Below, one piece after another: positions 25,361 to 64,000 of a stretch of DNA of 64,000 bases. The stretch is from Lachnospiraceae bacterium (GTDB lineage Bacteria; Bacillota; Clostridia; Lachnospirales; Lachnospiraceae). The position numbers were made by a program, and so were the translations under genes. Numbering within the stretch: position 1 is the first letter of the stretch; each line of letters starts with the position of its first letter. The notes under the pieces are model-generated. The model had not been told where the DNA came from. It saw only the letters and a program-made list of their open reading frames with translations, and ran no database searches. Location: contig JAEELW010000144.1 in NCBI GenBank assembly GCA_016282915.1, positions 1-64,000 on the forward strand. Direction: 5' to 3'.

Positions 25361-28144
25361 TCAATACAGCTGCCGGATCAGTTCCATCGCCTCATCATAT
25401 TCAAAGTCCGCCACTGCCCGTTTCACCTCCAGCAGCTGGCGGCGTATCCCCTCGTCCATGGGATAGGTCAGCAGGTTATCGATCTTGCGCGCCGCTTCGG
25501 ACTGCTCCAGAAGTTCAAGGCTGCCCTGCAATGCATGCAGCATATTGGAAAACTCTTCCCAGGAAAGCTCCTCTTCCCGGATCTGGATGATCTCCTCACG
25601 CAGCATACCCGCATCGCTCAGAGCCTCACGTATCGCATCCAGCATCTTTTCATACTGTGAAACCAGGAAGAAGCCTTCGCGGTCGATGACATCCACCTTT
25701 CCGTCACGCCCCGCATATTCCTGAAGCCGCGCCAGTTCGGACAGGTGCCCCGCGCCGATCCCGGCCATCAGGCTCTTCAGCGCATGCACCTCATAGATAT
25801 ACTGACGGTAATTTCTCGACGAAAGGCAGTCCCGGAGGCGCTGTACATGTCCCGGTCCGTCGTCGCAGATATATTTGAGGATCTGCAGATAACGTCCCGT
25901 ATCCTGTCCGTAATTCTTCAGGCCCTCATCCACATCTACACCGGGCAGGCTGATCCTCACATCACTGTAATCCTCGTTTTCATCGCTGCGGTCCACAAAA
26001 TGGATGATATCCGCAGGCAGGAATTTTTTCAGCACTGCCTCCATGCTGGACAGCGCGATGGGCTTGGAGATGTATTCCTGGAATCCGTTCTGCAGAAACA
26101 TCTCCCGCGTACCGCTGATGGCATTGGCCGTAAGGGCGATGACCGGAAGGCTCCGTATACCGGGATCACGGTGCGCACGGATCCTCGCCGTAGTTTCGAT
26201 ACCGTCCATCTCCGGCATCATCTGGTCCATCAATACCATATGGTAATTGTTCTTTTCCAGCTTCTCCAGGCACTCCCGGCCGCTCATGGCGGTATCCACA
26301 CGCACCTGGTACATGTTCAGTATGCCCTGCGCCACCTTGATGTTGGTGATATTATCATCCACCACGAGGATCTTTGCAAGGGGAGCGATAAAACTCTTGC
26401 GTTCATGTTCCGCCTGTATGGGCAGCTCCAGATAATCATAATTGCCGAGCGGCGAAGGATCCGCGATCTTCTGACGGTAATGGAAGGAAAACACGCTCCC
26501 GATCCCGTAGGTACTCTTGACGGAGATGCCGCCGCCCATGCCTTCCACCAGGCGCTTGCAGATGGCCAGGCCCAGGCCGGTTCCCTCTATGGTACGGTTC
26601 TTGATCATATCCGCACGCTGGAAACTGTCAAAAAGGGTCGGCAGGCTTTCCTCGCGGATACCGCTTCCGGTATCCTCCACCGAGACCTTCACCACCGCTT
26701 CGTCACCGTCCGCTTCCCAGTCCACGTTCACGCGTATGTATCCGCGGTTCGTATACTTGGCGGCGTTGGTCAGGATATTGGAATAGATCTGTCTTATGCG
26801 GGTCTCATCCCCGAGAAAGCAGCGGGGCAGCGACTCCTTCACATGAACGATCAGTTCCACGTTCTTGTCCGCAAGCCGCAGGAGGATCATATTGCTGCAG
26901 ATATCCTTCAGTACCAGTCCCAGATTGTATTCCGATTCCGTGATCTCCACCTTGCCCGTTTCGATCTTGGAGAAGTCGAGGATACCGTTGATGATGGAAA
27001 GCAGGGTATTGCTGGCGTTGCGGATATTGTTCGCATTCTCCTCGACATGGCTGTTGATGTTGTCGTTGAGGATCAGTTCCGTCATACCGATGATGGCATT
27101 CATGGGCGTACGGATCTCATGGCTCATATTCGCCAGAAAGACCGATTTGGCCTGGTTGGCTTTTTCCGCTTCGTTCTTCAGCTCGATCAGCCGGTTCGTG
27201 AATTCATGTTCTTCCGTTTTGTCCACGATCCAGATCGTGGTCCCCTTACAGGTCTCCCTGTCGTAAAAAGGCACCAGGGAGATCAGAAACTGCCGGTCGG
27301 CAACGGTGATCTCCTGTTTATCACTCTTTTTCAGCCGGTCGACCACAGCCTCCCTCGTAGCTTCGTAATTGAGCTCCGGAAATATCTCGCTGGCCTTTTC
27401 ATTTACGAAGAGGATACGGTCCATCGCATCGATCACGACAAAGGCATCTTCGATGGTCTCGATGATATCGTCCCGCGCCATGATCATGGAATCAAACATG
27501 CGGTAGCGGAAGACCAGCCCCACTACCAGCACCCAGCAGAGGATCACCACAAAAGTGATCAGCTCCGTAAAGTGCACGGCAAGCAGGAGATGCAGCCAGA
27601 TCCCTACGGGCGGGATCAGCTGAAGAAAGGCCAGCCAGCGGGTGCCGCTGTTGGTCTCAAGCATCTTGTTACGATAATAACGGTAGGTGATATAGAAGCC
27701 GAAAACAGAGATCGCCGAAGTGATGGACGCAAACATATAAAGCAGCGGATGGATCTCGATCATACCGGTATAAATCTGCTCTTTTGCAAAAAGATCCACG
27801 CCCATGGCCGGCAGCGAAATGACCAGCACGCTGTGGACCAGCAGATAGACCAGGAAAGGCACGCCGATCAGGGAAGGGGTTTCCACGCCGCAGGCACGGA
27901 TCGAGAAAAAGACCAGTGCCACAACAAAAGCGCATACCGCCATCCACTGAAGCTGCTGTGAGATCAGCACATTCCCTTCCCCGCTCCCCCACAGGGAGAA
28001 GCTCTGTCCGAGAAGGCCAAGCAGCACGGAGATCCCCGTAAAATTCAGGCTTTTCTGAACATGCGAGGGTTCACCGATATTGATCAGGATCATTGTAAAC
28101 AGCCAGCCCAGACCGGCCGTGATACAAAGCAGCTGAAAAACCAT
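25361..28144 (-). CDS. 7TM hybrid sensor histidine kinase (PAS-HisKA-HATPase-REC-HPt)
   Basis: The 927-residue protein starts at the ATG at 28144 (AAAGGAAG upstream). Seven hydrophobic segments fill residues 1 to about 215 in the 7TMR-HisK pattern. A PAS domain follows (FVVIDAMDRILFVNEKASEI), then the phosphorylatable histidine in FLANMSHEIRTPMNAIIG, an ATPase domain (NILTNAAKYT, DTGSGI, GTGLGLAICKRLVEGMGG), a receiver domain (ILVVDDN, LMDQMMPEMDGI, ALTANAI, ISKPI) and an HPt domain with VHALKSLMAGIGA. It should run an internal His-Asp-His relay, but no partner response regulator is adjacent. The signal is unknown. Confidence 0.93.
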   Translation of the reverse strand: MVFQLLCITAGLGWLFTMILINIGEPSHVQKSLNFTGISVLLGLLGQSFSLWGSGEGNVLISQQLQWMAVCAFVVALVFFSIRACGVETPSLIGVPFLVYLLVHSVLVISLPAMGVDLFAKEQIYTGMIEIHPLLYMFASITSAISVFGFYITYRYYRNKMLETNSGTRWLAFLQLIPPVGIWLHLLLAVHFTELITFVVILCWVLVVGLVFRYRMFDSMIMARDDIIETIEDAFVVIDAMDRILFVNEKASEIFPELNYEATREAVVDRLKKSDKQEITVADRQFLISLVPFYDRETCKGTTIWIVDKTEEHEFTNRLIELKNEAEKANQAKSVFLANMSHEIRTPMNAIIGMTELILNDNINSHVEENANNIRNASNTLLSIINGILDFSKIETGKVEITESEYNLGLVLKDICSNMILLRLADKNVELIVHVKESLPRCFLGDETRIRQIYSNILTNAAKYTNRGYIRVNVDWEADGDEAVVKVSVEDTGSGIREESLPTLFDSFQRADMIKNRTIEGTGLGLAICKRLVEGMGGGISVKSTYGIGSVFSFHYRQKIADPSPLGNYDYLELPIQAEHERKSFIAPLAKILVVDDNITNIKVAQGILNMYQVRVDTAMSGRECLEKLEKNNYHMVLMDQMMPEMDGIETTARIRAHRDPGIRSLPVIALTANAISGTREMFLQNGFQEYISKPIALSSMEAVLKKFLPADIIHFVDRSDENEDYSDVRISLPGVDVDEGLKNYGQDTGRYLQILKYICDDGPGHVQRLRDCLSSRNYRQYIYEVHALKSLMAGIGAGHLSELARLQEYAGRDGKVDVIDREGFFLVSQYEKMLDAIREALSDAGMLREEIIQIREEELSWEEFSNMLHALQGSLELLEQSEAARKIDNLLTYPMDEGIRRQLLEVKRAVADFEYDEAMELIRQLY

Positions 28145-28164
28145 GATCTTCCTTTCGCTTTTGC

Positions 28165-28204
28165 TTGACAATTTCCACAACGCCAAGTATAATCTTCGTT
28201 GTGG
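28165..28204 (+). promoter_or_regulatory. Perfect consensus promoter of tRNA-Trp with overlapping inverted repeat
   Basis: TTGACA (28165-28170), exactly 17 bp, TATAAT (28188-28193). An inverted repeat CCACAACG (28175-28182) and CGTTGTGG (28197-28204) flanks the -10 element symmetrically, like an operator. The promoter diverges from the histidine kinase gene, which starts 20 bp away on the other strand. Confidence 0.9.
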
Positions 28205-28224
28205 CGTGTGAGCGCGGCACATAA

Positions 28225-28302: not shown

Positions 28303-28331
28303 AAGGGATCCTTTCAAAGGATTCCTTTTTT
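28303..28331 (+). terminator. Terminator of tRNA-Trp
   Basis: AAGGGATCCTTT pairs with AAAGGATTCCTT (loop CAA region) and runs into TTTTTT just after the tRNA. Confidence 0.85.
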
Positions 28332-30261
28332 ATGTTTCCGATAGTTCCTCCTCGAGTTTTTCCCACTCCGCAAGCCAGGCTTCCTCCTGTGCGGCCGCCT
28401 CGTCCAGCTTCTGCTGGATCTCCTGGAGCTTCTCATAATCGCTGGCCCAGCGCGGGTCGGCAAGTTCCGCTTCCAGTCCGGCTTTTTTCCCGTCATTTTC
28501 CTGAAGGAGTTCCTCCAGCCGCTTCTGTCTGCGCTCGGCCCGGGCACGTTCCTTCCCCGGATTCCCTTTCTTTACCGGAGGGGCAGCCGCTGCCGTTTCT
28601 TCTTCCTTCTCATGTCCGTCGATCTTCCAGACCGCGGAAGCCTCCAGGATCTTTTCCTTCCCGTAATGCCGCTCATATTCTTCGTAGCCGAAAGGAAAAT
28701 ACTCGGCCTCGCCGGGCTTGAAGATCAGCAGCTCATCCGCAAGACGCCGTATCAGATAACGGTCATGGGAAACAAAGACCAGCGTTCCGGTATAAGACGA
28801 GAGCATCTCCTCCAGCGCTTCTTTTCCGACGATATCCATATGGTTCGTCGGCTCATCCAGAAGCAGCAGGTTCGGCCTGGTCTGCAGAAGCTTTGCCAGT
28901 GCAAGCCGCACCCTCTCGCCTCCGGAGATCTCGGATACGTTTTTGTATACATCGTCCCCGCTGAAAAGGAAGCCTCCCAGCACGGAACGCACCTCCGTCT
29001 CCGTCATGGACGGGTATTCATCCCAGAATTCGTCGAGCACGGTCTTCGTACTCTGGCTGCGGGCCATCTGCTGCTCAAAATATGCCACATCCACGGCATA
29101 GCCGAAGCTGTACTTTCCGCTCTTTTTCGGGATCTTTCCCATGATCGTACGCAGAAAAGTGGACTTTCCCAGCCCGTTTCCCCCGATGATCCCGAGCTTT
29201 TTTCCCTTTTGAAGATTCAGATTTACACGGCACAGGCTCTCTTCATAACCGATGCCGAGGTTTTCCACGATCAGGACATCGCGTCCGCTCTGCCGCAGGG
29301 GTTCACTCAGCCCGTGGAAAGCCCGCAGATCTTCTTCCTCCGGCTTTTCCACCACTTCCATGCGCTCGATGGCCTTGCGCTTGGAACGCGCCATGGCCGC
29401 CTTCGTCGGCTTTCCGATAAAGTGATCCGCAATGGTCTGAAGCCTTTCCTTTTCTTTCTGCTGCGCCAGGTATTCCTTTTTCTGATGCTCGTAACGTTCT
29501 TTCTTCTGGCGGACGTAATCGCTGTAATTACCGAAATAGCGTGTGACATGCCCGCGTTCGATCTCGTAAACCGTCTCGGCTACACGGTCCAGGAACAGAC
29601 GGTCGTGGCTCACCACCACCACAGCCCGAGGATATTCCGCGATATAGCCTTCCAGCCATGCGATGGTAGAGATATCCAGATGGTTCGTGGGCTCGTCCAG
29701 GAGCAGGATATCGGGCCGTGTCAGCAGCAGCTTGATAAAGGCGATCTTGGTCCTCTGACCGCCGGAAAAAGACGAAAGAGCTCTGTCCTCATCCTCTTTC
29801 GAAAAACCGAAACGCGAAAAAAGCTGCTCATAATCCTTTTCGTAACGGTAACCGCCGAGATACGAAAAGCGTTCCTCCAGTGCGGCATATTCTTCCGCAA
29901 GCTTCTCGTCCCCGCCGGCGGAAAGCTTTTCCAGCAGCGTATCCATACGCGCCTTCAGTTCCAGCACCGGTGCAAAGACACTGCGCAGCTCATCCCCCAG
30001 ACTGGCTTCTTCATTGGCAAAGGTCATCTGGGAGAGCCAGCCTATGGTCGGATCTCCTGTCCGCACAACGGAAGGAAGATCGTCGGAATCCCTGGGCTGC
30101 GGTGTCAGCTCTCCGGTGATCAGTTTTAAGAGCGTAGTCTTTCCGCAGCCGTTTCTGCCTACAACGGCGATCTTTTCCTCTTTACGGATGTCAAAATGAA
30201 CATCCTCAAGGATCGGATCGCCGCCATACGAAACATCTGCGTTTTGAATAGATATCAGCAT
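28330..30261 (-). CDS. ABC-F family ATPase (translation factor type)
   Basis: The 643-residue protein has two ABC cassettes without membrane segments: GRNGCGKTT, SSFSGGQRTK and ILLLDEPTNHLD in the first, GGNGLGKST, ISGGERVRLALAKL and LLLLDEPTNHMD in the second, joined by a charged linker, and a C-terminal coiled coil (about 555-640). ABC-F proteins bind the ribosomal E site and relieve stalling or antibiotic blockage; this one resembles the Uup/YdiF housekeeping type rather than a specific resistance factor. The ATG at 30261 is five bases after the preceding stop codon, with only a weak ribosome binding site, so translation is probably coupled. Confidence 0.9.
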   Translation of the reverse strand: MLISIQNADVSYGGDPILEDVHFDIRKEEKIAVVGRNGCGKTTLLKLITGELTPQPRDSDDLPSVVRTGDPTIGWLSQMTFANEEASLGDELRSVFAPVLELKARMDTLLEKLSAGGDEKLAEEYAALEERFSYLGGYRYEKDYEQLFSRFGFSKEDEDRALSSFSGGQRTKIAFIKLLLTRPDILLLDEPTNHLDISTIAWLEGYIAEYPRAVVVVSHDRLFLDRVAETVYEIERGHVTRYFGNYSDYVRQKKERYEHQKKEYLAQQKEKERLQTIADHFIGKPTKAAMARSKRKAIERMEVVEKPEEEDLRAFHGLSEPLRQSGRDVLIVENLGIGYEESLCRVNLNLQKGKKLGIIGGNGLGKSTFLRTIMGKIPKKSGKYSFGYAVDVAYFEQQMARSQSTKTVLDEFWDEYPSMTETEVRSVLGGFLFSGDDVYKNVSEISGGERVRLALAKLLQTRPNLLLLDEPTNHMDIVGKEALEEMLSSYTGTLVFVSHDRYLIRRLADELLIFKPGEAEYFPFGYEEYERHYGKEKILEASAVWKIDGHEKEEETAAAAPPVKKGNPGKERARAERRQKRLEELLQENDGKKAGLEAELADPRWASDYEKLQEIQQKLDEAAAQEEAWLAEWEKLEEELSET

Positions 30262-31636: not shown

Positions 31637-32299
31637 TTAAAAAGGCGAAGCCGCCTCATTCTGGTTTTTCTTTACGATGAACAGATCCGCTATGGCTTTT
31701 GCAAGGCGGAAAGGATAAAGCTGAAGCATATTTGTGGTGATCAGTTTACCCATCCTCACTTCAAAGCCGATCTGTACAAAGCGTTCTTCCTTCGGAAATG
31801 CATCATTCAGGTACTCACAGGGAGCCACCTCGAAGGTCTTGGGCGTGGAAATATCCACCAGCTTGTTGATCATCATGCCCATGGCCGTTGCCGCGCTGCC
31901 CATCATCTGGTTCATGGATTCGCTCACGGCGCTCATATGCAGTTCCGACACATCCTGTTCAAAAAACATCCCGTGACCGTCGCTGCCCATCATCAGGTCC
32001 GTCATGATCTTTACATCATCTTCCCTCAGAAAGAGCACGCTGTAGCCGTCCAGGCCCTTCACATAGTCCACACGGGTCACAAAGGTCTTTACCGGCAGGC
32101 TCTCAACGATCTCGCCTTTATTCTTGATCTCCACCAGCGGGGTCGAGATATCGATATCATTATGCAGAAGCACACTGAGCGCAGTTACGGCATTACCGAG
32201 AGTGATATTGGCCACCTCGCCGATCGCAGAGATCTCCATCTCGTTAAATCCCATCTGCTCTGCCTTTTGCCGCGCCGCTTCGATCAAAGCCTTATCCAT
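31637..32299 (-). CDS. cheC: CheC-family CheY-P phosphatase
   Basis: The protein (220 residues from the ATG at 32299) has the duplicated CheC active-site motif E-x2-N: SAIGEVANITLGNAVTAL near the start and SAVSESMNQMMGSAATAM in the middle, each followed by DISTP. Both sites are intact. CheC dephosphorylates CheY-P in chemotaxis; no SpoA domain follows, so it is not FliY. I prefer the internal start because a promoter ends right at the upstream ATG (32344) and GGAGG lies in front of 32299. It leads a transcript with mrp and the ABC-F gene, and no other chemotaxis gene is near. Confidence 0.8.
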   Translation of the reverse strand: MDKALIEAARQKAEQMGFNEMEISAIGEVANITLGNAVTALSVLLHNDIDISTPLVEIKNKGEIVESLPVKTFVTRVDYVKGLDGYSVLFLREDDVKIMTDLMMGSDGHGMFFEQDVSELHMSAVSESMNQMMGSAATAMGMMINKLVDISTPKTFEVAPCEYLNDAFPKEERFVQIGFEVRMGKLITTNMLQLYPFRLAKAIADLFIVKKNQNEAASPF

Positions 32300-32347
32300 A
32301 CCGTCTTCATCCTCCGTACGCATTTCAAACCCAACAGGTAGCATTTA

Positions 32348-48411: not shown

Positions 48412-49017
48412 TCATAACTCCATAAAATTCTTCAGTATGTGCAGGCCCACGCGTGAACTCTTTTCCGGATGGAACTGCGTTGCGAAAACGTTATCTTTTT
48501 CCACGGCTGCATGGATATGCACGCCGTATTCCGTACTCGCCGTCACCAGCTGCGGATCTTCGCTTTCCAGATAATAGGAATGTACGAAATATACGTAACT
48601 GCCTTCGTCAAGCCCGTGAAGCAGGCGGCTCTCCCGCTCCAGATGCAGGCTGTTCCAGCCGATCTGCGGCACCTTCAGCCCGTCGGACGCCGGAATGCGC
48701 TTTATCTTTCCCGGAAATACTTTCAGACCTTCCGCTTCCGGGCTCTCCTCGCTGCCGTCAAACAGAAGCTGCAGCCCTACGCAGATCGCCAGAAAAGGCC
48801 TGCCGCTTTCGATCACGCTGTGTATCGTTTTTTCCAGCCCAAAACTTTTCAGCTTTTCCACGGCATCGCCAAACACGCCCACACCAGGCAGCACCACCTT
48901 CTCGGCCGCTTCGATCAGCGCCGGATCACGGCTTAAGACCGCATCCCCGCCCAGTGCGCGAAAGGCATTCTCCACGCTCTTGATATTTCCCGCATCATAA
49001 TCAACGATCGCTATCAT
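48412..49017 (-). CDS. hisH: Imidazole glycerol phosphate synthase glutaminase subunit
   Basis: The 201-residue class I amidotransferase has [20 protein letters not shown], the nucleophile region [12 protein letters not shown] and the catalytic pair in [14 protein letters not shown]. It feeds ammonia to HisF. ATG 49017 follows AAAGGGATCATT. The interval upstream contains a family 2 repeat; a dedicated promoter was not recognised. Confidence 0.96.
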
Positions 49018-49121: not shown

Positions 49122-49196
49122 GTTATACCCGCGAACACAATTATCCGCCGATTTCAGTTTGTCTCCGCGGTATATGCCTTTAAACCGGACTGTTAA
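49122..49196 (+). repeat. Interspersed repeat, family 2, copy 2
   Basis: TTATACCCGCGA, GCCGAT, GTCTCCGCGGTATAT and TTTAAACCGGACTGTT align in order with 23618-23692. A related half unit (CCGCGTTATATACTGTCCGG) lies just before it at about 49079. Its end supplies the TAA stop of the acidic repeat protein gene. Confidence 0.6.
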
Positions 49197-52100
49197 AACT
49201 GCTCACTTTCGATCCTGAGTTCCACCGGAGTTTCCGCATTCTCGTCCTGCGGGGGTGCCTGCTGCCCGTCTGCGGGTGTCTCTCCCTCTGCCGGCTGCTG
49301 CTCGAGGCCTCCGTTTTCGATATAATCCCGCTCTTCCGGCAGAAGATCCGGCAACTCCTCTTCCGCCTCCGGTACCGACTCCTCTTCGAGGTTCAGACCA
49401 TAATCCTCAAAGATCGCTTCTTTCATGGGCCGGTATGGCTGTCCGTTTACGGCCGCTTCGATCTTTCCGGTATAATCCGCCTCGGAATAGTGCAGCGTTT
49501 CCAAAGCTTCCGTCTCACTGATCCCGTATACGGACGAAAGCGCATCCAGTATCTTATTGCGTATCACCATCGCCTCGATGCTCACATCCAGCTCTTCGGC
49601 TTCCGCTTCCAGTTCATTGTATCGCTTCAGCCCCTGCAGCAGTGCATCCAGCGCCTCTTTCTCCATTCCCATGGAACGGTAATGTTCGAAGGATTCGTAT
49701 TTCCGGTCCAGCATCACCAGCAGACGGGAACGACGGTAAAGCACGCGGTCACTGTCATTCAGTTCCTTGCCATACATGGAAAGGAAGGCGGTCTTGTAAT
49801 CCTCGTTATAGAATGCGTCTCTGGCCGACTGCATATTCATCAGCACCGGCACATAGGAGGTGACCACCACCAGTGCAACCAGAATGGAAAATGCCAGGAA
49901 CATTGTCCGCCGGATATACTTCTTCGGAATGCGTTTCCCGTTGTCGGGTTCTTCCTTCTTTTCCTTCTTCGGCTTGACCTTCTTTTCTTTCTTGGGTTTT
50001 TCTTTCTTTTCCTTTTTGGGCTTTTCCTTCTTTTCCTTTTTCTTTTTGCCCTTGCCTTCGTCTCCTTCGGCATCGATCTCGCTCAGGATCGCGGCATTTT
50101 CGTCGCTGAGCTTTGTTTCCCCGGCCTCCTTGGGCTGGGCTTTTTCTTCATCCTCTTCCGGCTCGGCAGTCAGCGCACTGAAAAGTCTTGCAAAGAAGCC
50201 CGGTTTCTTCTCACGCTTCTCTTTCTCCTCGCCTTCTTCTCCGTCCTTTTTCTTTTCTTTCTTCTTTTTCTCTTTCTTTTCTTTTTTCTTCTTTTCCTTT
50301 TTCTTCTTTCCGCCTTCCTCTTCTCCCTCAGGCGTTTCGTTCGATTCCAGCAGACTCTCGTCTACCAGTTCGTTATTATCCGACTTCTGCAGCAGATTTC
50401 CGATATCGCTCAGATCCACGTCATCTTCGCCCAGCGTAGCCAGCAGGGCCGCCACATCGTCTCCATCGTCCACCGGAAGTCCGTCCGCTTCGTTCGCTCC
50501 CGCCTCGGCAAGCTTCATCTGGGCCTCGATATCATCCAGTCCCATGTCCATGGAAAAGTCATCGCTGCCCGTATCATCTGCCGCCGATGCCAGCAGCTTC
50601 TCGATCTCGGCGTCCTCATCACCCGTTCCGTTCAGAAGTGCTGCCATCTCCTCCAGGCTGCTGTCATCTCCGGCCTCCGCAGCCGCTTCGCCTGTCGGGG
50701 GCGGCGTGACGCCTCCGCCGATCACGGTATCGGAATCGCCGTTTGCGGCAAAGAGTGCCGCAATATCATCCGTGCTCAGGGATTCCCCACCATCTGAAGA
50801 AACAGGGGCAGGCTCCTCTTCCGCGGGAGTTTCCTCTGTTGCAGGCTCTTCCCCGGCGGGCTCGTCTCCCATTGACGCCAACAGCGCCGCAATATCATCC
50901 GGCGACATCATCTTATTCGGATCGTCGCTCACCGCAGGCGCGGGTTCTTCCTCTACGGCAGGCTCCTCCTCGGGGGGTGCTTCTTCCGCGACAGACTCTT
51001 CTTCCGCGGCCGCATCGTCTCCCATCGACGCCAACAGCGCCGCAATATCATCCGGCGACATCATCTTATTCGGATCGTCGCTCACCGCAGGCGCGGGGAC
51101 CGCTTCCTCTTCTGCAGGCTCCTCGGGGGCAGCTTCTTCTGCAGGCTCTTCTTCTGCGGCGGGCTCGTCTCCCATCGACGCCAACAGCGCCGCGATATCA
51201 TCCGGCGACATCATTTTATTCGGATCGTCGCTCACCGCAGGCGCGGGTTCTTCCGCAGGAACTTCCTCTGTTGCAGGCTCTTCTTCCGCAAGCGGCTCTT
51301 CCGCGATCTCAGGCACTTCTTCCGCGACCGGCTCTTCTTCTGCGGCGGGCTCGTCTCCCATTGACGCCAATAACGCCGCAATATCATCCGGCGACATCAT
51401 CTTATTCGGATCGTCGCTCACCGCAGGCGCGGGGTTTTCCTCTACGGCAGGCTCCTCTTCTGCAAGCGGCTCTTCCTCGATCTCAGGTACTTCTTCCGCG
51501 ACAGTCTCTTCTTCCGCGGCCGCATCGTCTCCCATTGACGCCAATAACGCCGCGATATCATCCGCCGACATCATTTTATTCGGATCGTCGCTCACCGCAG
51601 GCGCGGGCGCAGGGTCTTCCGCAGGAACTTCCTCTGTTGCAGGCTCTTCTTCTGCAAGCGGTTCTTCCTCGATCTCAGGTACTTCTTCCGCGACCGGTTC
51701 TTCCTCCGCAGGCTCTTCTTCATACGCAGCCAGCTCTTCCTCTACGACAGGCTCTTCTTCTATCTCAGGTATTTCTTCCGCGACCGGTTCTTCCTCGGTC
51801 ACAGGTATTTCTTCCGCAGGCAGTTCTTCCTCAGCGGCTGGCTCTTCTTCATACGCAGCAATCTCTTCTGCTTCCGGCTCTTCCTCGATCTCAGGTACTT
51901 CTTCCGTGACCGGCTCTTCCTCGATCTCTGATACTTCTTCCGCGACCGGTTCTTCTTCGATCCCGGGTACTTCTTCCGCGACCGGCTCTTCCTCGGTCAC
52001 AGGTATTTCTTCCGCAGGCAGTTCTTCCTCTGCGGCAGGCTCTTCTTCAAACGCAGCAATCTCTTCTGCTTCCGGCTCTTCCTCGGTCACAGGTATTTCT

Positions 52101-53407
52101 TCCGCAGGCAGTTCTTCCTCTGCGGCTGGCTCTTCTTCATACGCAGCAATCTCTTCTGCTTCCGGCTCTTCCTCGATCTCAGGTACTTCTTCCGTGTCCG
52201 GTTCTTCTTCGATCTCAGGTATCTCTTCCGCGACCGGTTCTTCCTCGGTCACAGGCTCTTCTTCGGCAACCGGTTCTTCCTCGATCTCAGGCTCTTCTTC
52301 AACCGGCTCTTCCTCCGCGGGCAGTTCCTCCGCTACGGCAGGCTCTCCTTCGACTTCAAAGACTTCCTCTACTCCCGGCGTCTCTTCAACTACCGGTTCT
52401 TCTTCAACCAGAGGTATATCTTCTACAATCGGTTCTTCCTCGACCACCGATGCTTCTTCAAACGGCTCCTCTTCAACTAAAAGGGCATCCTCAACTGCCG
52501 GTTCTTCCCCTGGCAGAGACTCTTCTGCTGCAGCATCCTCCGCTTCCATCGAAGCCAGAAGCGCTTCAAAATCCATCTGCATCGGATCTGCCGCTTTTCT
52601 CTTCTTCGGTAAAAATTCTTTTTTCGGCAGTAGCTTTTCTTCTTTGGGCACCGGCTCCTCTTCAGCTATCGCCTCTTCCTCCACAGATGCATCTACTGCC
52701 TCAGAAGCCTCTTCTGCTGCTTCTTCTTCGTACTCCGCTTCACCCTCGTATTCCGGCTCTTCTTCGTACTCTGCTTCACCCTCAAATTCCGGCTCTTCTT
52801 CGTACTCCGCTTCACCCTCAAATTCCGGCTCTTCTTCGTACTCCGCTTCACCCTCGTATTCCGGCTCTTCCTCGTACTCCGCTTCACCCTCGTATTCCGG
52901 CTCTTCTTCGTACTCCGCTTCAGCCTCATATTCCGGCTCTTCTTCGTACTCCGCTTCACCCTCATATTCCGGCTCTTCTTCGTACTTCGCTCCAGCCTCA
53001 TATTCCGGCTCTTCTTCGTACGCCACTTCCTCTTCTGCTGCCGGCTCTTCTTCCCAAGCAGACTCTTCTTCCCGGAGTGCCGCCTCTTTTTCGTGATCGT
53101 CCAGTTCTATGCCGGATACCACTTCAGCGATCTGGCGGAAAGAGGGCAATACAAAATCATCGTCAGCTTTTTTGCTGACGTTCACCGTTTCAGGCTTTCT
53201 TCCGACTATCGAAAAAAACTCCGGATTTTTCTCCGAAGGCTCCGAAGCTTTTTTCTCCTCCTCACCCCGGGATTCCTTCTTTTCCCCGTCCTTCCCGGAC
53301 CGGTTTTTTCCGGAATCCTTTCTGTTCCTGTCGGAGGGATCTGTCTTCTGCATCTGTTGTTGTGCTGCCCGCAGCAGCTGGTCCAGATAATCCTCTTCCG
53401 ATGCCAT
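49193..53407 (-). CDS. Giant acidic repeat membrane protein with repeated FliM/FliY-N-like motifs
   Basis: The 1404-residue protein has residues about 115-240 as tandem 10-12-residue units (EYEEEPEYEGEA), 250-600 as Glu/Pro/Val repeats (VAEEVPEIEEEP), and about 600-880 with five near-identical units containing MMSPDDIAALLASMGDE plus degenerate ones (LSTDDIAALFAANGD, SLEEMAALLNGTGDE, GDDVAALLATLGED). These resemble the LSQxEIDALL peptide by which FliM and FliY bind CheY-P. Two Lys/Glu tracts precede a single membrane helix near residue 1165 (TMFLAFSILVALVVVTSYV), with basic residues inside, so the long acidic part is cytoplasmic. The ATG at 53407 has no clear ribosome binding site and a very short leader. 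Function unknown. Confidence 0.8.
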   Translation of the reverse strand: MASEEDYLDQLLRAAQQQMQKTDPSDRNRKDSGKNRSGKDGEKKESRGEEEKKASEPSEKNPEFFSIVGRKPETVNVSKKADDDFVLPSFRQIAEVVSGIELDDHEKEAALREEESAWEEEPAAEEEVAYEEEPEYEAGAKYEEEPEYEGEAEYEEEPEYEAEAEYEEEPEYEGEAEYEEEPEYEGEAEYEEEPEFEGEAEYEEEPEFEGEAEYEEEPEYEGEAEYEEEAAEEASEAVDASVEEEAIAEEEPVPKEEKLLPKKEFLPKKRKAADPMQMDFEALLASMEAEDAAAEESLPGEEPAVEDALLVEEEPFEEASVVEEEPIVEDIPLVEEEPVVEETPGVEEVFEVEGEPAVAEELPAEEEPVEEEPEIEEEPVAEEEPVTEEEPVAEEIPEIEEEPDTEEVPEIEEEPEAEEIAAYEEEPAAEEELPAEEIPVTEEEPEAEEIAAFEEEPAAEEELPAEEIPVTEEEPVAEEVPGIEEEPVAEEVSEIEEEPVTEEVPEIEEEPEAEEIAAYEEEPAAEEELPAEEIPVTEEEPVAEEIPEIEEEPVVEEELAAYEEEPAEEEPVAEEVPEIEEEPLAEEEPATEEVPAEDPAPAPAVSDDPNKMMSADDIAALLASMGDDAAAEEETVAEEVPEIEEEPLAEEEPAVEENPAPAVSDDPNKMMSPDDIAALLASMGDEPAAEEEPVAEEVPEIAEEPLAEEEPATEEVPAEEPAPAVSDDPNKMMSPDDIAALLASMGDEPAAEEEPAEEAAPEEPAEEEAVPAPAVSDDPNKMMSPDDIAALLASMGDDAAAEEESVAEEAPPEEEPAVEEEPAPAVSDDPNKMMSPDDIAALLASMGDEPAGEEPATEETPAEEEPAPVSSDGGESLSTDDIAALFAANGDSDTVIGGGVTPPPTGEAAAEAGDDSSLEEMAALLNGTGDEDAEIEKLLASAADDTGSDDFSMDMGLDDIEAQMKLAEAGANEADGLPVDDGDDVAALLATLGEDDVDLSDIGNLLQKSDNNELVDESLLESNETPEGEEEGGKKKKEKKKKEKKEKKKKEKKKDGEEGEEKEKREKKPGFFARLFSALTAEPEEDEEKAQPKEAGETKLSDENAAILSEIDAEGDEGKGKKKKEKKEKPKKEKKEKPKKEKKVKPKKEKKEEPDNGKRIPKKYIRRTMFLAFSILVALVVVTSYVPVLMNMQSARDAFYNEDYKTAFLSMYGKELNDSDRVLYRRSRLLVMLDRKYESFEHYRSMGMEKEALDALLQGLKRYNELEAEAEELDVSIEAMVIRNKILDALSSVYGISETEALETLHYSEADYTGKIEAAVNGQPYRPMKEAIFEDYGLNLEEESVPEAEEELPDLLPEERDYIENGGLEQQPAEGETPADGQQAPPQDENAETPVELRIESEQF

Positions 53408-57870: not shown

Positions 57871-60800
57871 CTACTTCGCTTTCACCGTGATCGTGATGCT
57901 CTTTCCGTTGATCTTTGCCGTAAGTTTGGCCTTGCCCTTCCCCTGAACGACCAGTTCACGTTCTTCGTTCACATAGGCGACGCCCGGATTGCTGCTCTTA
58001 AAGGCCACGAAACGGTCCAGGGCTGCGAGCTCGAGTTTGAACTTTGTTCCGACGCTCAGTTCGGCCTCATATTTCTTTCCTTTTACTCTGAGCGCAGTAT
58101 TTGTGATCGTGCAGTTCTCTACCGTCACATTTATACGGTATTCCGCGCCTTTATACACCGTCGTAAGGATCGCCGTTCCGGGGGCATTCGCTTTCAGCCT
58201 GTTCTTCTTTACAAATTCCACGCAGCTTCCGGAGGAAATACTCCATTCCACATTCTTCAGGCCTTTGACGGAGATGCTCTTCGTACCGCCCACATTAATG
58301 TGCAGCGTGCGGCTCTGCTCGGGCGAAGTCTCCGTTACCTTTACTTTGCAGCTGTAGCTCTTTCCGTTCACAAAGGCCGTGATCGTGGCGCTGCCGCGGC
58401 TCACTGCCGTGAGCTTTCCGCTCACAGGATCGACCGCTGCCACATCCGGAGCCGAAGAAGAAAAACAGAAGGGCAGGCTGCCGTCCCCGGGATCAAATCC
58501 GCAGCTCATGCTCACGCCGGCCTCCAGCTTCAGGGACTTCTTTTTAAAGACCGGCTGGGAGATATAAACTTTGATGCGCTGTCCCGTGCTCCTGTTCTCC
58601 AGGATCACGAAACTGCCCGTCCCCGTCACCTTCTTTGCGCTCACGGCTCCTTTTTTGCTGACGTTCAGATACTTCTTATCCTTTTTGCTCACACTCCAGC
58701 CGCTCTCCGGCATCGTAAACTTCTGTCCCTTCACCAGATGCAGCTCCGTCGTCAGTGCATTCAGCGCGGGAACGGAATTGAAAGCCGAAGCCAAAGCTCC
58801 GCCGCCGCCCTCGGGAAGGCTTCCGTCTTCCTTTTTCAGGATCACCGTGATACACACGGGGTCGGTGTCGGCATGAGCGGAATCGCCGCGCACATAATAC
58901 CATACATAATAATATGCGGGTTTCTCGGCTTTCGGCAGAGTCATTGCAAACTCTTCTGCCGCGGGAGCGGTCCGGTCATTGCTTCCGAGACAGTACACCA
59001 TGGTACCGCCCGAGGCCTTCCCGCGTTCGATCAGCACCTGACTTAAGTGATTGCAGCGCAGATCCTTTGCTGCAGGTTCTGTGATCACCAGGGCAAGCGG
59101 CTTTTCGTCTTTTTTGTACGTTGCCGTCACCGTGACGGTCTTTGCCGGCATCACGAGACTCGTGACCGCTGCTCCCGCATCGGCAAAAACGACCTCATCC
59201 TCGCTGTACCAGGAGCTGAATACTTTCCCGGCCGGTGCGGCATCGGCGGTGATCATTACGCTCTCTCCCGCCTCATATTCTCCGCCGCCCTTCCCGTTCT
59301 CGACTTTGAGCCTGCAGACCGCGGAACGTATCCTCACGCTTACCGGCGTGGCGTCCAGACCGTTTACCGTGGCTGTGGCGCTGATCCGGTACCAGACCGT
59401 GTAGTTTCCGGCCTCAGTCCCGCTGGGGACAGCGCTGTCGAAGCTTACGCCGTCCGCACTGTATTCCATCATGCCGCCCTTTGTCACACTCCCCGGATTC
59501 AGAAGCTCCTGGGGCGCCCCCGTATAACTTAAGCTTTTTGCCGTCGGCGCCGTATATTCCGGATCTTCCAGACCGTTTAAAGTGATCGCGACCCAGAAGG
59601 TGCAGTCAAAGTTCGTTCCGTAAGCGATCAGTGAGACATGGATCTTATCCCCTGCCTTAGCTCCGTGGATCTCCATACGTAGGATCCCGTCATTGCTCAC
59701 CGTGATATCGTCCACGATCACGCTGCCGGTCTCGATCCACTGTTCATAGGGTTCGTATCCGCTCACCGTCCCTGCTGCCTGAGGGACCATGGATGCCAGC
59801 GGTATGGAAAGCTGCTCACGGATCCCCACGCTGCGCGTAAGGGTTCCCAGATCCCTCGGCCCCCCTTTGCCGATGCTGAAGGTCGTGGAACCGCTGACGG
59901 TATAATTTCCGCCTTCTCTGTCCACAAGCGTGATCAGCGCGCTGTTCGTACCCACATTCACATTATTTGCATAAAGCACCGTATATTCCGCGGCACTGAC
60001 AAGACCGTATTCGCTGCTTACCGTCACGGCAGGCTCCACGGCAGCGCCGGTGTAGGACGCATGTCCCACACTGATCGCCGGATCCGTAAGGATGCAGGGG
60101 GCGATCTCGAAACTGCCATAGGTCTCTCCGGAATACATTCCCTTTCCCGTAACAATGATCGTCGCGCTGCCGGCATCGATATTGTCTTCCGCAGAATAGC
60201 TGTAGTCCGTCCCGTATGTAAGGCTTACTCCGTCCAGACTGACCGCGACATCGGAAGGCTCGGGAAGCAGCTCTTCACCGATATAGCTGTAATTTCCTCC
60301 CACACTGACCACGGCTGCCTCTAGGCTTCTGCCCAGCACCGTCAGTGTTCCGTTCTCATAGCTGATATTGTAATTTCCCGTCACGTCCACGCCGTTTTCA
60401 TCGGCAATGCGGGCATCGGAAGGGGTGATCGTTCTGCCTGTCGCCGGCACGGAAGTATCACCGCTCAGCTTCACCTCACTCAGTACATGACCGTAGGCCG
60501 CCCCCTCCAGTACCGCCAGCCCGGGGGCGGAAGGCAGCGCTACGCCGGCCTCCACACTCTGGTCTGCCGCCCTTACCGTAACGTCACAGGGCAGGATATC
60601 CGCTTTGATATCCTGCGGCCATTTTTCCTCCGAAACACTGTAATTGTATGCTGCATGGGACGCAGCGGGGCACTCCAGTTCCACCTCTGTGATGATGACT
60701 GCCTTGTCGTTCCCTACGGACGGATCCGCAAATTCTCCCAGGACGATCAGCCCCACTTCCACCTCATCGGCGGGCAACACCCCGCCGATGGGATAGGATA

Positions 60801-63591
60801 CCTTCATATCCGCCCAGGTACCGCCGTTATATACACGGCTCTGTGCCGTGATCCCTTCCAGAGAAACAGGCTTCGCTGTGATGTCAAATTCCGCACTGCC
60901 GCTATAGATGGCGCTTGCAGTTTCCCCGCTGACGCTTACCACATAATGCCCGGCATCCCGGGGCTTTTCATCACTGTCATAATCCTCGGAATAGGCCGTG
61001 ACACCGCTGTAGTGGATCTGCGCTGTCCAGCTTCCATGTGCAAACTGCGGATCCGGCAGGGGCGTTCCGTATACAACGGATTCCTGCGCTACCGTCAATT
61101 CTTCCATCTGCAGGTCACGGATCTCTACATCAAAGTAAAGGCTCTTTTCTTCATAATTTTCATTTCCGGCGGCTGTTGCCCTGATCCGTATCTTCCCTGC
61201 GGAGTCACCGGTGGTAAGCATGCTCCCGCTGATGCTGCATCCCAGTTTTTCCCCTTCAATGGAATACGTCAGCTCTCCCACAGCCGAGGATACGGCTATG
61301 GCAAGATCCCGCTGGCGGCCGTTGCTGCCTGCGCTGATATTTCTCACGCTCATGGGATTTGCCGCCTTTTTGATGATCAGGGTGCCGTATTCCAGCCCCT
61401 GCGCCGCCGAAATGTTCTTTCCCCCCGCCACATCAAAAGTAACGGCGTAGCTTCCGGCATTCACCGGTGCTTCCTTCTCACCGTTATAGTATACGCTGAT
61501 CTCCCCGCAGCCGCTCATCGGACTCTTCAGTTCCGGCAGGGATACGCCCTTTGCCTTCCCGTCATAACTGTACGGTCCGAGGCTTCCGAGCACAAAATCT
61601 TCAGGCTGCGGCGTTCTCATAAAGATCCGCCACTGGGAGCTTTTCGTCCCTTTGAAATTCCCCATACCGGTAACGGCAACGGAATAGGTCCCTGCATCAA
61701 GGCCGACCTGGGAGTTAAGGCTGTAATCCGTTCCTTCTTTCAGAAGACGATCGCGATAGCTTACCGAAAACCTGCCGCCGCTGCCATAGCCGTCGTAGGG
61801 AATACGCATCGTCTGCGCGATCGTGAGCTCGCTTACATCCCGGGGCCGGATCGAAAAGTCCGTGACTCCGCTCATTCCGTTACTCGCCGATACTCTGAGT
61901 ATATAGCTTCCGGCTTCCGTGGGCACCGTGGGACTGAAGGGCTCCGAAGTCCTTGCCCTGCAATAGCCGGCACTCCTGATCGTCAGATCTTCACTGCCGT
62001 AACGGTCCGCATTCATCAGTCTCGGCGTGGAAGCCGCCTCATCATAGGTCCAGTTATCGATCAGGGGCACCACCCTGGTGGCATCCAGGATCGCAAATTT
62101 CCAGCCATATACATAATCCGCCTTCACGGACGTATTCGATCCGTTATAGTTCGCGCCTCCTTCAAAGACCGGTGCCGTGATCGACGGCTTTCCTCCGCCA
62201 GCGCTCTTTGCAGCACTGATGGCTTCGCTGTAGCCTGCTGCCGTAAGCTTCCCTCCCGTCAGCGTAAAATAGGTATTGACCTTGATCCCATAGCTGGTAG
62301 CGGCATTTCCGGCTTTGGCTGTGATCTCACCACCTATGACCTTTGTCTCGCGCTCGTTTTTATCCGTCAGCCTCAGTGCATAGCTTTCGCCCCTGCTTCC
62401 GCCGGAAACACTTCCGGCTGTGGCCGTAAGGCTTCCTCCGCCCATGGCAAAGGTCCCCGCATCCACGGCAATGCTCTGAGACTCCCCGGAACTGCCTGCT
62501 GTGGCTTTCAGTGTTCCCAGAACGATGATCAGCTTGCCTGTACAGTTGACCGCCCGGCTGACAGCCTTTCCCCCGGCATCGGCAGCCGTCGCTGTCAGCG
62601 TTCCCCTGGTCAGGTTCACGCCTTTGGTCACATAAAGGGCACAGGCTTCCGTGTACAGGTCACCCGATACCGATGCGGTAGCAAGCGTAAGGCTTCCGCC
62701 GTTCATCTTCAGCTCCCCGGCATGATAAAGGCCGTAGCTTTTAGAGGAGGAAGACTGGACACTGCCGCCGGCAGCCGTGATACTGCCTCCCTTCATGAGG
62801 AAATCCCCGTCCTTGGACATGATGCCGTAGCTGTTCTTGCTGTTGCTCGTCACTTTGCCGCCGGAAGCCTTAAGGTTTCCGGAATTCATGGTGATGCCGC
62901 GGCCCGCGCGCACACCGTAGCTTTCCTGCTTTGCTTCACTGCCCTTTGCGGTCACGCTCAGCGCGCCGATGGTACTGTCCGAAAAGCTGATCCCGTAACC
63001 GCAGAAGATCCCGGCCGCCGTCCCTTTGGAGCTGCCGCCCATCGCCACGTTCAGCGAACCGCCCAGAAGGTTTTCGGAGGACTTGATCGTCAGCTCCTGA
63101 TCCACATGGATCCCCTCAATGACGGTACTGTCCGAAGAGGCGTTAGCGTTGATGGAGCAGTTCCCTTCCACAACGATATTGAGCTTTCCGTCGCAGAAGA
63201 TCCCATAGCTTTCCGATCCGCTTTTTTTATAGGCGTTCGAGATATGGAAATCCTTCATGGTCAGGGTACAGCTGGACGCATTATAACTCAGCTCACTGTC
63301 CCCTTCCCTGATACTGTCTCCGTAAGTGACCAGGTTTACGACTCCCTTGGAAGAGGTATTCACGTACAGCTGGGTCGGCTCACCGCTGAAGGGTCCTCCG
63401 TCCGGCTCTGCGGGAATATCGTCCTCCGCGTCCGCATCTTCGTATGAATCCGCCGTAAGCTCCTCCTCATCGTATACCGGCTCCTCAGGGTCGGCGGCGC
63501 GGACTCGTGATCCGCTTCCAAACTCGCCCAGAAGAAGAAAGCCTGAAAGCAGCATTGATGCCAGACTGCGGAAACATTTCTTTTTTTTCAT
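57871..63591 (-). CDS. Giant secreted multi-domain adhesin-like protein
   Basis: The 1906-residue protein has a signal peptide from the ATG at 63591 (GGAGGTG upstream), cleaved near VRAADPEE, then an acidic linker. About residues 75-490 are repeated beta-helix-like units (GSLTATAGSVSGGSRGESYA), followed by MBG/YDG-like Ig modules (about 500-1340, e.g. SVGHASYTGAAVEPAVTVSS), an InlB-like B repeat (GKGGGEYEAGESVMITADAA) near 1400, and three Big-2-like Ig domains at the end (PDVAAVDPVSGKLTAVSRGS). There is no LPXTG or SLH anchor, so attachment is unclear. It is probably a cell-surface or secreted adhesin. Confidence 0.82.
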   Translation of the reverse strand: MKKKKCFRSLASMLLSGFLLLGEFGSGSRVRAADPEEPVYDEEELTADSYEDADAEDDIPAEPDGGPFSGEPTQLYVNTSSKGVVNLVTYGDSIREGDSELSYNASSCTLTMKDFHISNAYKKSGSESYGIFCDGKLNIVVEGNCSINANASSDSTVIEGIHVDQELTIKSSENLLGGSLNVAMGGSSKGTAAGIFCGYGISFSDSTIGALSVTAKGSEAKQESYGVRAGRGITMNSGNLKASGGKVTSNSKNSYGIMSKDGDFLMKGGSITAAGGSVQSSSSKSYGLYHAGELKMNGGSLTLATASVSGDLYTEACALYVTKGVNLTRGTLTATAADAGGKAVSRAVNCTGKLIIVLGTLKATAGSSGESQSIAVDAGTFAMGGGSLTATAGSVSGGSRGESYALRLTDKNERETKVIGGEITAKAGNAATSYGIKVNTYFTLTGGKLTAAGYSEAISAAKSAGGGKPSITAPVFEGGANYNGSNTSVKADYVYGWKFAILDATRVVPLIDNWTYDEAASTPRLMNADRYGSEDLTIRSAGYCRARTSEPFSPTVPTEAGSYILRVSASNGMSGVTDFSIRPRDVSELTIAQTMRIPYDGYGSGGRFSVSYRDRLLKEGTDYSLNSQVGLDAGTYSVAVTGMGNFKGTKSSQWRIFMRTPQPEDFVLGSLGPYSYDGKAKGVSLPELKSPMSGCGEISVYYNGEKEAPVNAGSYAVTFDVAGGKNISAAQGLEYGTLIIKKAANPMSVRNISAGSNGRQRDLAIAVSSAVGELTYSIEGEKLGCSISGSMLTTGDSAGKIRIRATAAGNENYEEKSLYFDVEIRDLQMEELTVAQESVVYGTPLPDPQFAHGSWTAQIHYSGVTAYSEDYDSDEKPRDAGHYVVSVSGETASAIYSGSAEFDITAKPVSLEGITAQSRVYNGGTWADMKVSYPIGGVLPADEVEVGLIVLGEFADPSVGNDKAVIITEVELECPAASHAAYNYSVSEEKWPQDIKADILPCDVTVRAADQSVEAGVALPSAPGLAVLEGAAYGHVLSEVKLSGDTSVPATGRTITPSDARIADENGVDVTGNYNISYENGTLTVLGRSLEAAVVSVGGNYSYIGEELLPEPSDVAVSLDGVSLTYGTDYSYSAEDNIDAGSATIIVTGKGMYSGETYGSFEIAPCILTDPAISVGHASYTGAAVEPAVTVSSEYGLVSAAEYTVLYANNVNVGTNSALITLVDREGGNYTVSGSTTFSIGKGGPRDLGTLTRSVGIREQLSIPLASMVPQAAGTVSGYEPYEQWIETGSVIVDDITVSNDGILRMEIHGAKAGDKIHVSLIAYGTNFDCTFWVAITLNGLEDPEYTAPTAKSLSYTGAPQELLNPGSVTKGGMMEYSADGVSFDSAVPSGTEAGNYTVWYRISATATVNGLDATPVSVRIRSAVCRLKVENGKGGGEYEAGESVMITADAAPAGKVFSSWYSEDEVVFADAGAAVTSLVMPAKTVTVTATYKKDEKPLALVITEPAAKDLRCNHLSQVLIERGKASGGTMVYCLGSNDRTAPAAEEFAMTLPKAEKPAYYYVWYYVRGDSAHADTDPVCITVILKKEDGSLPEGGGGALASAFNSVPALNALTTELHLVKGQKFTMPESGWSVSKKDKKYLNVSKKGAVSAKKVTGTGSFVILENRSTGQRIKVYISQPVFKKKSLKLEAGVSMSCGFDPGDGSLPFCFSSSAPDVAAVDPVSGKLTAVSRGSATITAFVNGKSYSCKVKVTETSPEQSRTLHINVGGTKSISVKGLKNVEWSISSGSCVEFVKKNRLKANAPGTAILTTVYKGAEYRINVTVENCTITNTALRVKGKKYEAELSVGTKFKLELAALDRFVAFKSSNPGVAYVNEERELVVQGKGKAKLTAKINGKSITITVKAK

Positions 63592-63602
63592 AAACACCTC
63601 CA

Positions 63603-64000
63603 TCATTCCATACTATACTTTTCTCTAACCCAGTCTTCCGGTACATGATCCTTCAGCACTGCGTCTGCGCGCCCGATCATCTCCTCATAGGTAAGGATGG
63701 GGATACGGTATACGCTGTCATCAAAGATCGAAGAGACGATCAGGCTCTTTCCGTCCGCTCCCGGCCACCGGAAGGTACAGAGCGGCAGATCCGCGATCCT
63801 CCGGAAATCCCTGTCATAAAGAGCGTTTTCCAGAACATAGACCTGCGCCTCTTCCAGCCAGGGAAAACTGTTTTCCGAAAGGAACACCCCCGCATCATAG
63901 ATCACACGGACCGCGTGTCCCTCTGCATCAAAGACATGCAGGGTGTCTTCCGTATCGATCACCACGGTATACTTTCCGTCCCCCGAGCGGGATGCGCCGA
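63603..64000 (-). CDS. C-terminal part of a protein running off the window
   Basis: The frame is open from the window edge and ends at 63603 (132 codons visible), 12 bp before the adhesin start. The visible part, with DGKYTVVIDTEDTLHVFDAE, EGHAVRVIYDAGVF and GADGKSLIVSSIFDDSVYRI, alternates like blades of a beta-propeller/WD40-type repeat and ends VPEDWVREKYSME. No signature of a named family is visible. It is probably co-transcribed with the adhesin gene. Partial at its 5' end. Confidence 0.65.
   Translation of the reverse strand, partial: GASRSGDGKYTVVIDTEDTLHVFDAEGHAVRVIYDAGVFLSENSFPWLEEAQVYVLENALYDRDFRRIADLPLCTFRWPGADGKSLIVSSIFDDSVYRIPILTYEEMIGRADAVLKDHVPEDWVREKYSME

Follow-up and report, generated by a model that had tools for sequence, protein, structure and literature searches.

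Introduction

HubP/FimV and ChePep, as outlined in the sources cited below, are precedents for acidic or Glu-rich organisers of chemotaxis. HubP/FimV combines a single membrane span with a cytoplasmic region that is long, acidic, repeated, and variable in length, and has a tie to chemotaxis and flagella (PMC8789113, PMC12918733). ChePep of Campylobacterota is a poly E-rich, lineage-specific accessory chemotaxis protein, which is described as recruiting CheZ, a CheY-P regulator (PMC11237671, PMC9665402, PMC3561388). In Vibrio, the accessory motility protein MotV is reported to be tied to FliM and to CheV4, a CheV with an unusual switch residue (PMC8789113). At the motor, the N-terminal peptide of FliM (FliM-N) is stated to raise the number of CheY-P molecules near the core (PMC9126983) and has been described as a flexible tether (PMC7355467). 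The titles and opening abstract lines listed in our searches of an open-access library, on CheY-binding peptides and Lachnospiraceae chemotaxis, describe no protein such as the one reported here and nothing on the mechanism of Lachnospiraceae chemotaxis.

The window analysed in this study (the whole stretch of 64,000 nucleotides from a Lachnospiraceae bacterium) contains the gene of a long acidic membrane protein. The new result is that this protein belongs to a Lachnospiraceae family which tracks FliM and is encoded beside CheV. The long acidic repeated region next to one membrane span, typical of HubP/FimV, is present and is predicted to be cytoplasmic. Unlike in HubP/FimV, the tail lies on the N-terminal side, an outer helical domain takes the place of the cytoplasmic FimV domain, and the family was found only in Lachnospiraceae in the searches made. 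The periplasmic LysM-like domain of HubP was not detected (Pfam; the outer domain was modelled as all-helical), nor did Pfam match a C-terminal cytoplasmic FimV/TPR domain; the C-terminal domain is predicted to lie across the membrane, and its TPR likeness is weak. The Glu-rich composition and lineage specificity recall ChePep (HP0322), compared here by its published descriptions, in which a membrane anchor and FliM-like units are not reported. The likeness to the Vibrio system, where MotV is likewise known by description, lies in an accessory protein tied to an unusual-switch CheV and FliM, whereas CheV4 has Ala at the switch place (PMC8789113) and the CheVs found here have Gln. That the acidic protein works like HubP or ChePep is part of our tentative main model, given somewhat less than an even chance; the comparison is one of function and not of family membership.

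Structure of the Gene and Protein

The open reading frame extends from TTG 53416 or ATG 53407 down to 49193. The ATG is the more likely start codon; the reading from it begins MASEEDYLDQLL... and resembles the N-termini of many homologues. The main features of the gene are as follows.

49193-53407, minus strand: gene of the acidic single-pass membrane protein (ORF, 1,404 residues)
53372-53395, minus strand: N-terminal EDYLDQLL peptide, common to many homologues
52722-53029, minus strand: 36-bp acidic repeats of the EEEPEYEGEAEY type, 8.6 copies (Tandem Repeats Finder, 93% matches)
51639-52333, minus strand: Glu/Pro/Ala-rich acidic repeats (tandem-repeat analysis)
50366-50416, minus strand: second tail peptide DLSDIGNLLQKSDNNEL, present in some homologues
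49850-49900, minus strand: predicted membrane helix (hydropathy), with a Lys-rich stretch before it
49400-49933, minus strand: membrane helix and conserved, predicted all-helical outer domain (alignment A5), the stretch used to find the family

From the N-terminus, the protein comprises the EDYLDQLL peptide, acidic repeats, repeated units with weaker look-alikes, a Lys-rich stretch (30% K), the membrane helix, and the helical domain. Residues 111-1000 contain 33% Glu and carry a net charge of -335. Hydropathy in 19-residue windows rose above 1.6 at residues 1164-1175 alone, the highest value in the rest of the protein being 0.94, which indicates one membrane segment. According to the established positive-inside rule, the Lys-rich side of the helix places the acidic part in the cytoplasm, where the predicted tail is probably disordered. 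Hydropathy, the Lys-rich side, and charge thus bear out the preliminary description, which had proposed a long acidic single-pass protein with a cytoplasmic repeat part. No Pfam or NCBIfam match was obtained for the whole protein at E<=1, and FliM and CheC/SpoA domains were absent in the same searches.

The pattern [DENS].YL[DN].LL of the N-terminal peptide occurs in 58 of 81 homologous tails and in none of the shuffles. When 4 changes or fewer are allowed, LSEIxDLLxKSDNNEL is present in 16 of these 81 tails. The outer domain was modelled by AlphaFold2 as all-helical (pLDDT 91, pTM 0.74). Foldseek gave no significant match to it (best E 0.58 among the 50 matches listed); the many TPR proteins among these 50 are only a hint that the domain may be TPR-like. 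Its profile obtained two chance-level matches (E 0.16 and 0.35) against PDB sequences.

Distribution of the Family and Co-Occurrence with FliM

Of 200 Lachnospiraceae genomes searched with the outer domain, 84 proved to encode a single homologue each, and the profile recovered the same 84 strongly; weak matches in four of the 200 (G028, G073, G129, and G163) were not counted as carriers. This search for homologues had been proposed together with one for repeat-number variation; tails that carry units have arrays of 1-12 copies. In 291 genomes of the class, profile A1 found eight strong matches, all in Lachnospiraceae. Six other class-wide matches of this profile (E 4.8e-5 to 6.8e-4), covering 58-81 model positions near its start, were rejected as noise. 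An alignment made from 30 outer domains proved too divergent for scanning a collection. Most of 80 named loci are titled Lachnospiraceae or Butyrivibrio, Lachnospira, Robinsoniella, and Mobilitalea, genera which we take to belong to Lachnospiraceae. A further ten carry less specific or different titles (L155, L171, L186, L194, L198, L199, L201, L205, L212, and L213), including Lactobacillus rogosae (L201), Eubacterium (L205 and L213), and Bacteroides (L212).

FliM (PF02154 over cut-off) was present in 108 of the same 200 genomes, namely in 81 of the 84 carriers versus 27 of the 116 non-carriers. The carriers without a match over the cut-off were G042, G147, and G174. Among the 27 FliM-positive non-carriers, 19 have a divergent, low-scoring FliM and eight a conventional one; five of these eight genomes are <90% complete. 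For a ribosomal-protein tree, 90 of the 200 genomes were picked before any tree was built and 83 were kept (six had no L2 match and one was too gappy); the tree was a quick one, with 26 of 80 inner branches starred. Ten independent pairs differed in conventional FliM; on average 9.4 of them showed a matching difference in the acidic protein, and none an opposite one (median p 0.002). With any FliM, 13 pairs gave 8.6 the same way, 0 opposite, and 4.4 with no difference (median p 0.004). The agreement of the independent contrasts means that the association with FliM reflects more than one shared ancestor.

Tail length among the homologues ranged from 68 to 1,169 residues, some tails being shortened by contig ends. 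A zinc-ribbon-like C..C...C..C pattern was observed in 14 of 81 tails (L055, L066, and L078, for example) and stands before the N-terminal peptide in several homologues.

Genomic Context

Apart from the window there are 83 carriers, and the gene neighbourhood was retrieved for 80 of them (all but G101, G168, and G150). Neighbours such as hisH, hisF, ung, and the histidine kinase were identified by inspection of their sequences. A full-length CheV is encoded one to three ORFs upstream in 65 of the 80 loci; seven of the 15 loci without it have <800 bp before the frame. Both CheVs tested with Pfam (one upstream CheV and the L319 CheV of the window's genome) have the CheW and receiver domains. At least 64 of the 65 neighbouring CheVs, for example that of L088, carry an unusual and conserved Gln at the aromatic-switch position, which we take to be equivalent to the aromatic switch residue of CheY. 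Judged from this residue, it may be that CheV is no partner of the FliM type. Two more families recur upstream, one of lipoproteins (28 loci) and one without a name (25 loci), and the downstream clusters contain hisH (50 loci), hisF (73), and ung (65).

In the genome of the window, no CheV lies upstream of the acidic gene, which is followed by hisH. CheV, a lipoprotein, and a histidine kinase occur together on contig C99 (L319), and the gene set is thus split; the C99 lipoprotein is of the same family as the recurrent upstream one (28 BLAST matches). Two neighbours in the window are relevant here.

48412-49017, minus strand: hisH-like gene, named by eye, the first of the downstream hisH-hisF-ung common to many loci
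31637-32344, minus strand: CheC-family protein (PF04509, E 1.9e-20, two copies), 17 kb from the acidic gene

The CheC-family protein may be a phosphatase of the same pathway as the acidic protein; further CheC-domain matches lie on contig C16 of the same genome. The CheC noted in the preliminary description was thus confirmed, and the flagellar connection that it had guessed was upheld by the FliM and CheV data. Co-occurrence with FliM and linkage to CheV make a flagellar or chemotaxis role of the family well supported.

Other genes of the window, all on the minus strand, include a probable surface protein of 1,911 residues with InlB B-repeat-like, Big_2, and YDG domains (57871-63606), an ABC-F protein of the ribosomal-protection-like class (28330-30261; NF000355 over its cut-off, score well below the threshold of the OptrA model), and a hybrid histidine kinase (25361-28222; receiver over cut-offs, Hpt just under its cut-off).

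Repeated Units of the Tail

The tail contains five near-identical units, SDDPNKMMS[P/A]DDIAALLASMGD[E/D], of which four have MSPDD and one has MSADD, followed by a diverged sixth; Tandem Repeats Finder detected arrays of 153-174 bp. Bits below refer to the FliM/FliY matrix.

51524-51595, minus strand: unit 1, MSADD form (13.6 bits)
51350-51421, minus strand: unit 2 (13.6 bits)
51164-51235, minus strand: unit 3 (13.6 bits)
51014-51085, minus strand: unit 4 (13.6 bits)
50861-50932, minus strand: unit 5 (13.6 bits)
50735-50782, minus strand: unit 6, variant SLSTDDIAALFAANG (unit profile E 1.8e-4; 9.7 bits)
50621-50662, minus strand: weak look-alike SSLEEMAALLNGTG, given earlier as SLEEMAALLNGTG (<8 bits)
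50429-50461, minus strand: weak look-alike DDVAALLATLG (<8 bits)

All five near-identical units reported earlier were located; of the "about eight" motifs counted at that time, six are convincing, and the last two are present at scores below 8 bits.

The strict unit pattern gave six matches in the window protein; among 81 homologous tails it matched 44 times, in 10 of them, and 200 residue shuffles of the tails gave a mean of 0.005 and a maximum of 1. The other 71 homologues have no unit by this pattern; counts in homologues are lower bounds, as some tails end at contig ends. Among copies within the window gene, located by the string SDDPNKMMS and thus exclusive of the diverged sixth unit, pN/pS was 0.04 in units versus 0.36 in spacers. 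Four of these copies differ at 26% of synonymous and 1% of non-synonymous sites in the units, and at 34% and 12% in the spacers. One unit from each of 25 relatives gave pS 0.78 and pN 0.24, and the 17 downstream codons of the same relatives (gap-free alignment) gave 0.75 and 0.59. All 25 units agree in D, P, I, and the second A, while S is found in 24 and N in 22, an invariance that is partly by construction, since the pattern by which the set was chosen fixed P and I and narrowed other positions. AlphaFold2, run on the single sequence of residues 598-930, predicted at low confidence (mean pLDDT 52) a coil with seven short helices, which correspond to the six units and SSLEEMAALLNG. From these comparisons, the units look to be under selection rather than low-complexity by-products. 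A frame of unknown kind in G052 (L317:1620-2321, minus strand, 234 residues) ends with GGDDPNRVLSPDEIQALFAAMGAG, a window-type unit with the DPN prefix.

Comparison of the Units with FliM and FliY

The N-terminus of FliM in 21 genomes follows [VI]LSQ[SNED]EID[NSA]LL and that of FliY in 20 genomes [MVS]L[ST]Q[DE]EINAL[LI]; the shared core is L-S-Q-x-E-I-[DN], against [LM]-S-[PAD]-[DE]-[DE]-I-A in the tail units. Like FliM/FliY-N (EIDALL; PDB 1F4V, 4IGA), the units are short and amphipathic, with S, an acidic pair, I, and A/x-L-L at the same spacing. Unlike them, they have P/A/D for Q, A for D/N, and a DPNK prefix, are repeated, and sit in a membrane protein without FliM or SpoA domains. The FliM peptide of PDB 4IGA closely resembles the N-terminus of FliM in the window's genome. 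Relatives have variants that are much closer to FliM/FliY: SMSQEEINALMG (L153), MMSQDEIAALLE (L219), NMSQSEIEALLA (L148), and MMSEEEIDRLLG (L183). The Asp at the D/N position, which is replaced in the units, is presumably a CheY contact.

Of 154 distinct tails (160 minus six duplicates), 27 reached >=12 bits on the FliM/FliY matrix, built from the N-termini above, eight of them from the 81 sampled genomes; 20 rounds of shuffling gave a mean of 0.45 and a maximum of 2. All 160 tails were used in the comparison with neighbouring proteins and in that of variants. Among the 591 neighbouring proteins (170,513 aa) the best-scoring segment gave 11.5 bits, and none reached 12. When the window tail was shuffled 500 times, one shuffle exceeded 13 bits, at 17.4. 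Profile A7, built from FliM/FliY only, found FliM and FliY in all 20 carriers and no tail unit at E<=3 in these genomes. Profile A4 (16 units, some of them FliY-like) matched the FliY N-terminus in 11 of 12 carriers, where FliY was the best match outside the acidic protein itself in 10. This match was not taken as independent evidence, as FliY was nearly lost when FliY-like units were excluded: profile A6 (12 plain units) found it once in 20 carriers, at E 0.72. Taken on the sequences, the likeness of the units to FliM/FliY N-termini appears real, and the window's units are read as a diverged form of this peptide type. The resemblance claimed earlier thus holds in the matrix scores and in the nearer variants; it fails at the Q and D/N positions and in the FliM/FliY-only profile. 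Docking of CheY-P or another receiver by the units is plausible, and it cannot be the common task of the whole family, because 71 of 81 homologues have no strict unit.

Profile A7, also run on 20 FliM-lacking genomes (none better than E 0.144), revealed stand-alone FliM-N-like proteins in three of 20 carriers. In G135, a protein of 132 residues (L322:3062-3457, plus strand), located away from flagellar genes, consists almost entirely of four such units (LTQEEIDTLI, LTQPEIDSLI, LSQPEIDSLI, and LTQAEIDKLI); it had no Pfam match over cut-off and no relative in the viral contigs scanned. Small proteins of 64-95 residues ending in NRVLSQAEIDALFAAM, GRVLSQAEIDALIASM, and VGLSQEEVDALLNGI are encoded in G079 (L324:3829-4050, minus strand) and G193 (L325:3343-3534, minus strand, and L323:2225-2509, plus strand).

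Possible Function

Our tentative first reading, which falls a little short of an even chance, is that the acidic protein is a membrane scaffold concentrating phosphorylated receivers in the flagellar chemotaxis of motile Lachnospiraceae. The small helical domain outside the cell and the one membrane helix would anchor the long acidic cytoplasmic tail, which in the window's lineage and some relatives would present an array of 1-12 short amphipathic FliM/FliY-N-like peptides. By analogy with FliM-N, which captures CheY-P ahead of its action at the core of the motor, each unit would have a weak hold on phosphorylated CheY, or on another receiver, and the array would take up many molecules at once; this would raise or buffer the local receiver concentration at the membrane site of CheV and the receptor array, or at the motors. 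An array on a CheV-linked membrane protein should gather CheY-P at the membrane, with motor feeding, buffering, or array placement as possible outcomes. The gene, its family, the topology signals, the conservation of the units, and the ties to FliM and CheV are computational results; for the units, we infer receiver binding, its dependence on phosphorylation, and an effect on switching. The eight genomes with conventional FliM but no acidic protein, the three carriers without a FliM match over the cut-off, and the separation of the gene from cheV in the window's genome speak against the scaffold. Since members without units also track FliM, the common role of the family is probably scaffold-like, with the units as a lineage elaboration.

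A multivalent CheY-P reservoir is possible, at a lower probability than the scaffold: the units would form a decoy FliM-N array, with copy number set by tandem duplication, beside CheV arrays or motors. CheY-P, gathered possibly in a condensate-like layer, would set a threshold or memory of flagellar switching, and the stand-alone mini-proteins of G135, G079, and G193 could be soluble counterparts. The titles and abstract openings listed in our open-access searches describe no such control layer between the receptor array and the motor.

A placement factor, that is, a polar or array landmark like HubP/FimV, whose tail recruits positioning proteins or CheV/CheA assemblies and whose units dock something other than a receiver, is rather unlikely. 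The broad build of anchor and long acidic repeated cytoplasmic tail is as outlined for HubP/FimV (PMC8789113, PMC12918733), and the links to FliM and CheV, kept by unit-less members, would fit a landmark; no LysM or FimV domain was found by Pfam, however, and the end with the helical domain is predicted to lie outside the cell. It is improbable that the family acts through its outer domain on the flagellum or envelope (in assembly, at the stator, or by contact with the wall), with the tail as a spacer and the units lineage-specific and unrelated to receivers. Linkage to CheV, unit conservation, and FliM/FliY likeness speak against it; in its favour, conservation is centred on the outer domain, which follows FliM, and the tail varies widely in length, in part by truncation at contig ends. 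Still less credit is given to units that mimic FliM/FliY-N in order to dock a CheC/FliY-type phosphatase or switch-assembly factor: CheC domains are encoded in the window and on C16, but no evidence was found here for such proteins binding the unit peptide. That the units are a functionless low-complexity by-product of tandem duplication, for which the tandem arrays and the frequency of unit residues in the tail could be cited, is very nearly dismissed, being largely contradicted by pN/pS, by shuffles that do not yield the unit, and by the same core in 25 relatives (a pattern-chosen set); the by-product without conserved hydrophobic positions, named in the preliminary description as its refutation, was thus contradicted.

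Conclusions

Motile Lachnospiraceae are important gut bacteria, and among their conserved proteins is an unnamed one whose gain and loss follow the flagellar switch and whose gene accompanies that of CheV. Co-variation with FliM and linkage to CheV clearly mark it as a candidate for a component that the pathway still lacks. If the units of the proposed membrane scaffold bind CheY-P, nature would offer in them an array of FliM-N-like peptides with variable copy number. In the two-step CheY-FliM mechanism the first step involves the peptide only, and such an array would allow a direct test of whether this step can store or steer the signal away from the motor. If they act as a reservoir, chemotaxis in these bacteria would have an added control layer between the receptor array and the motor.
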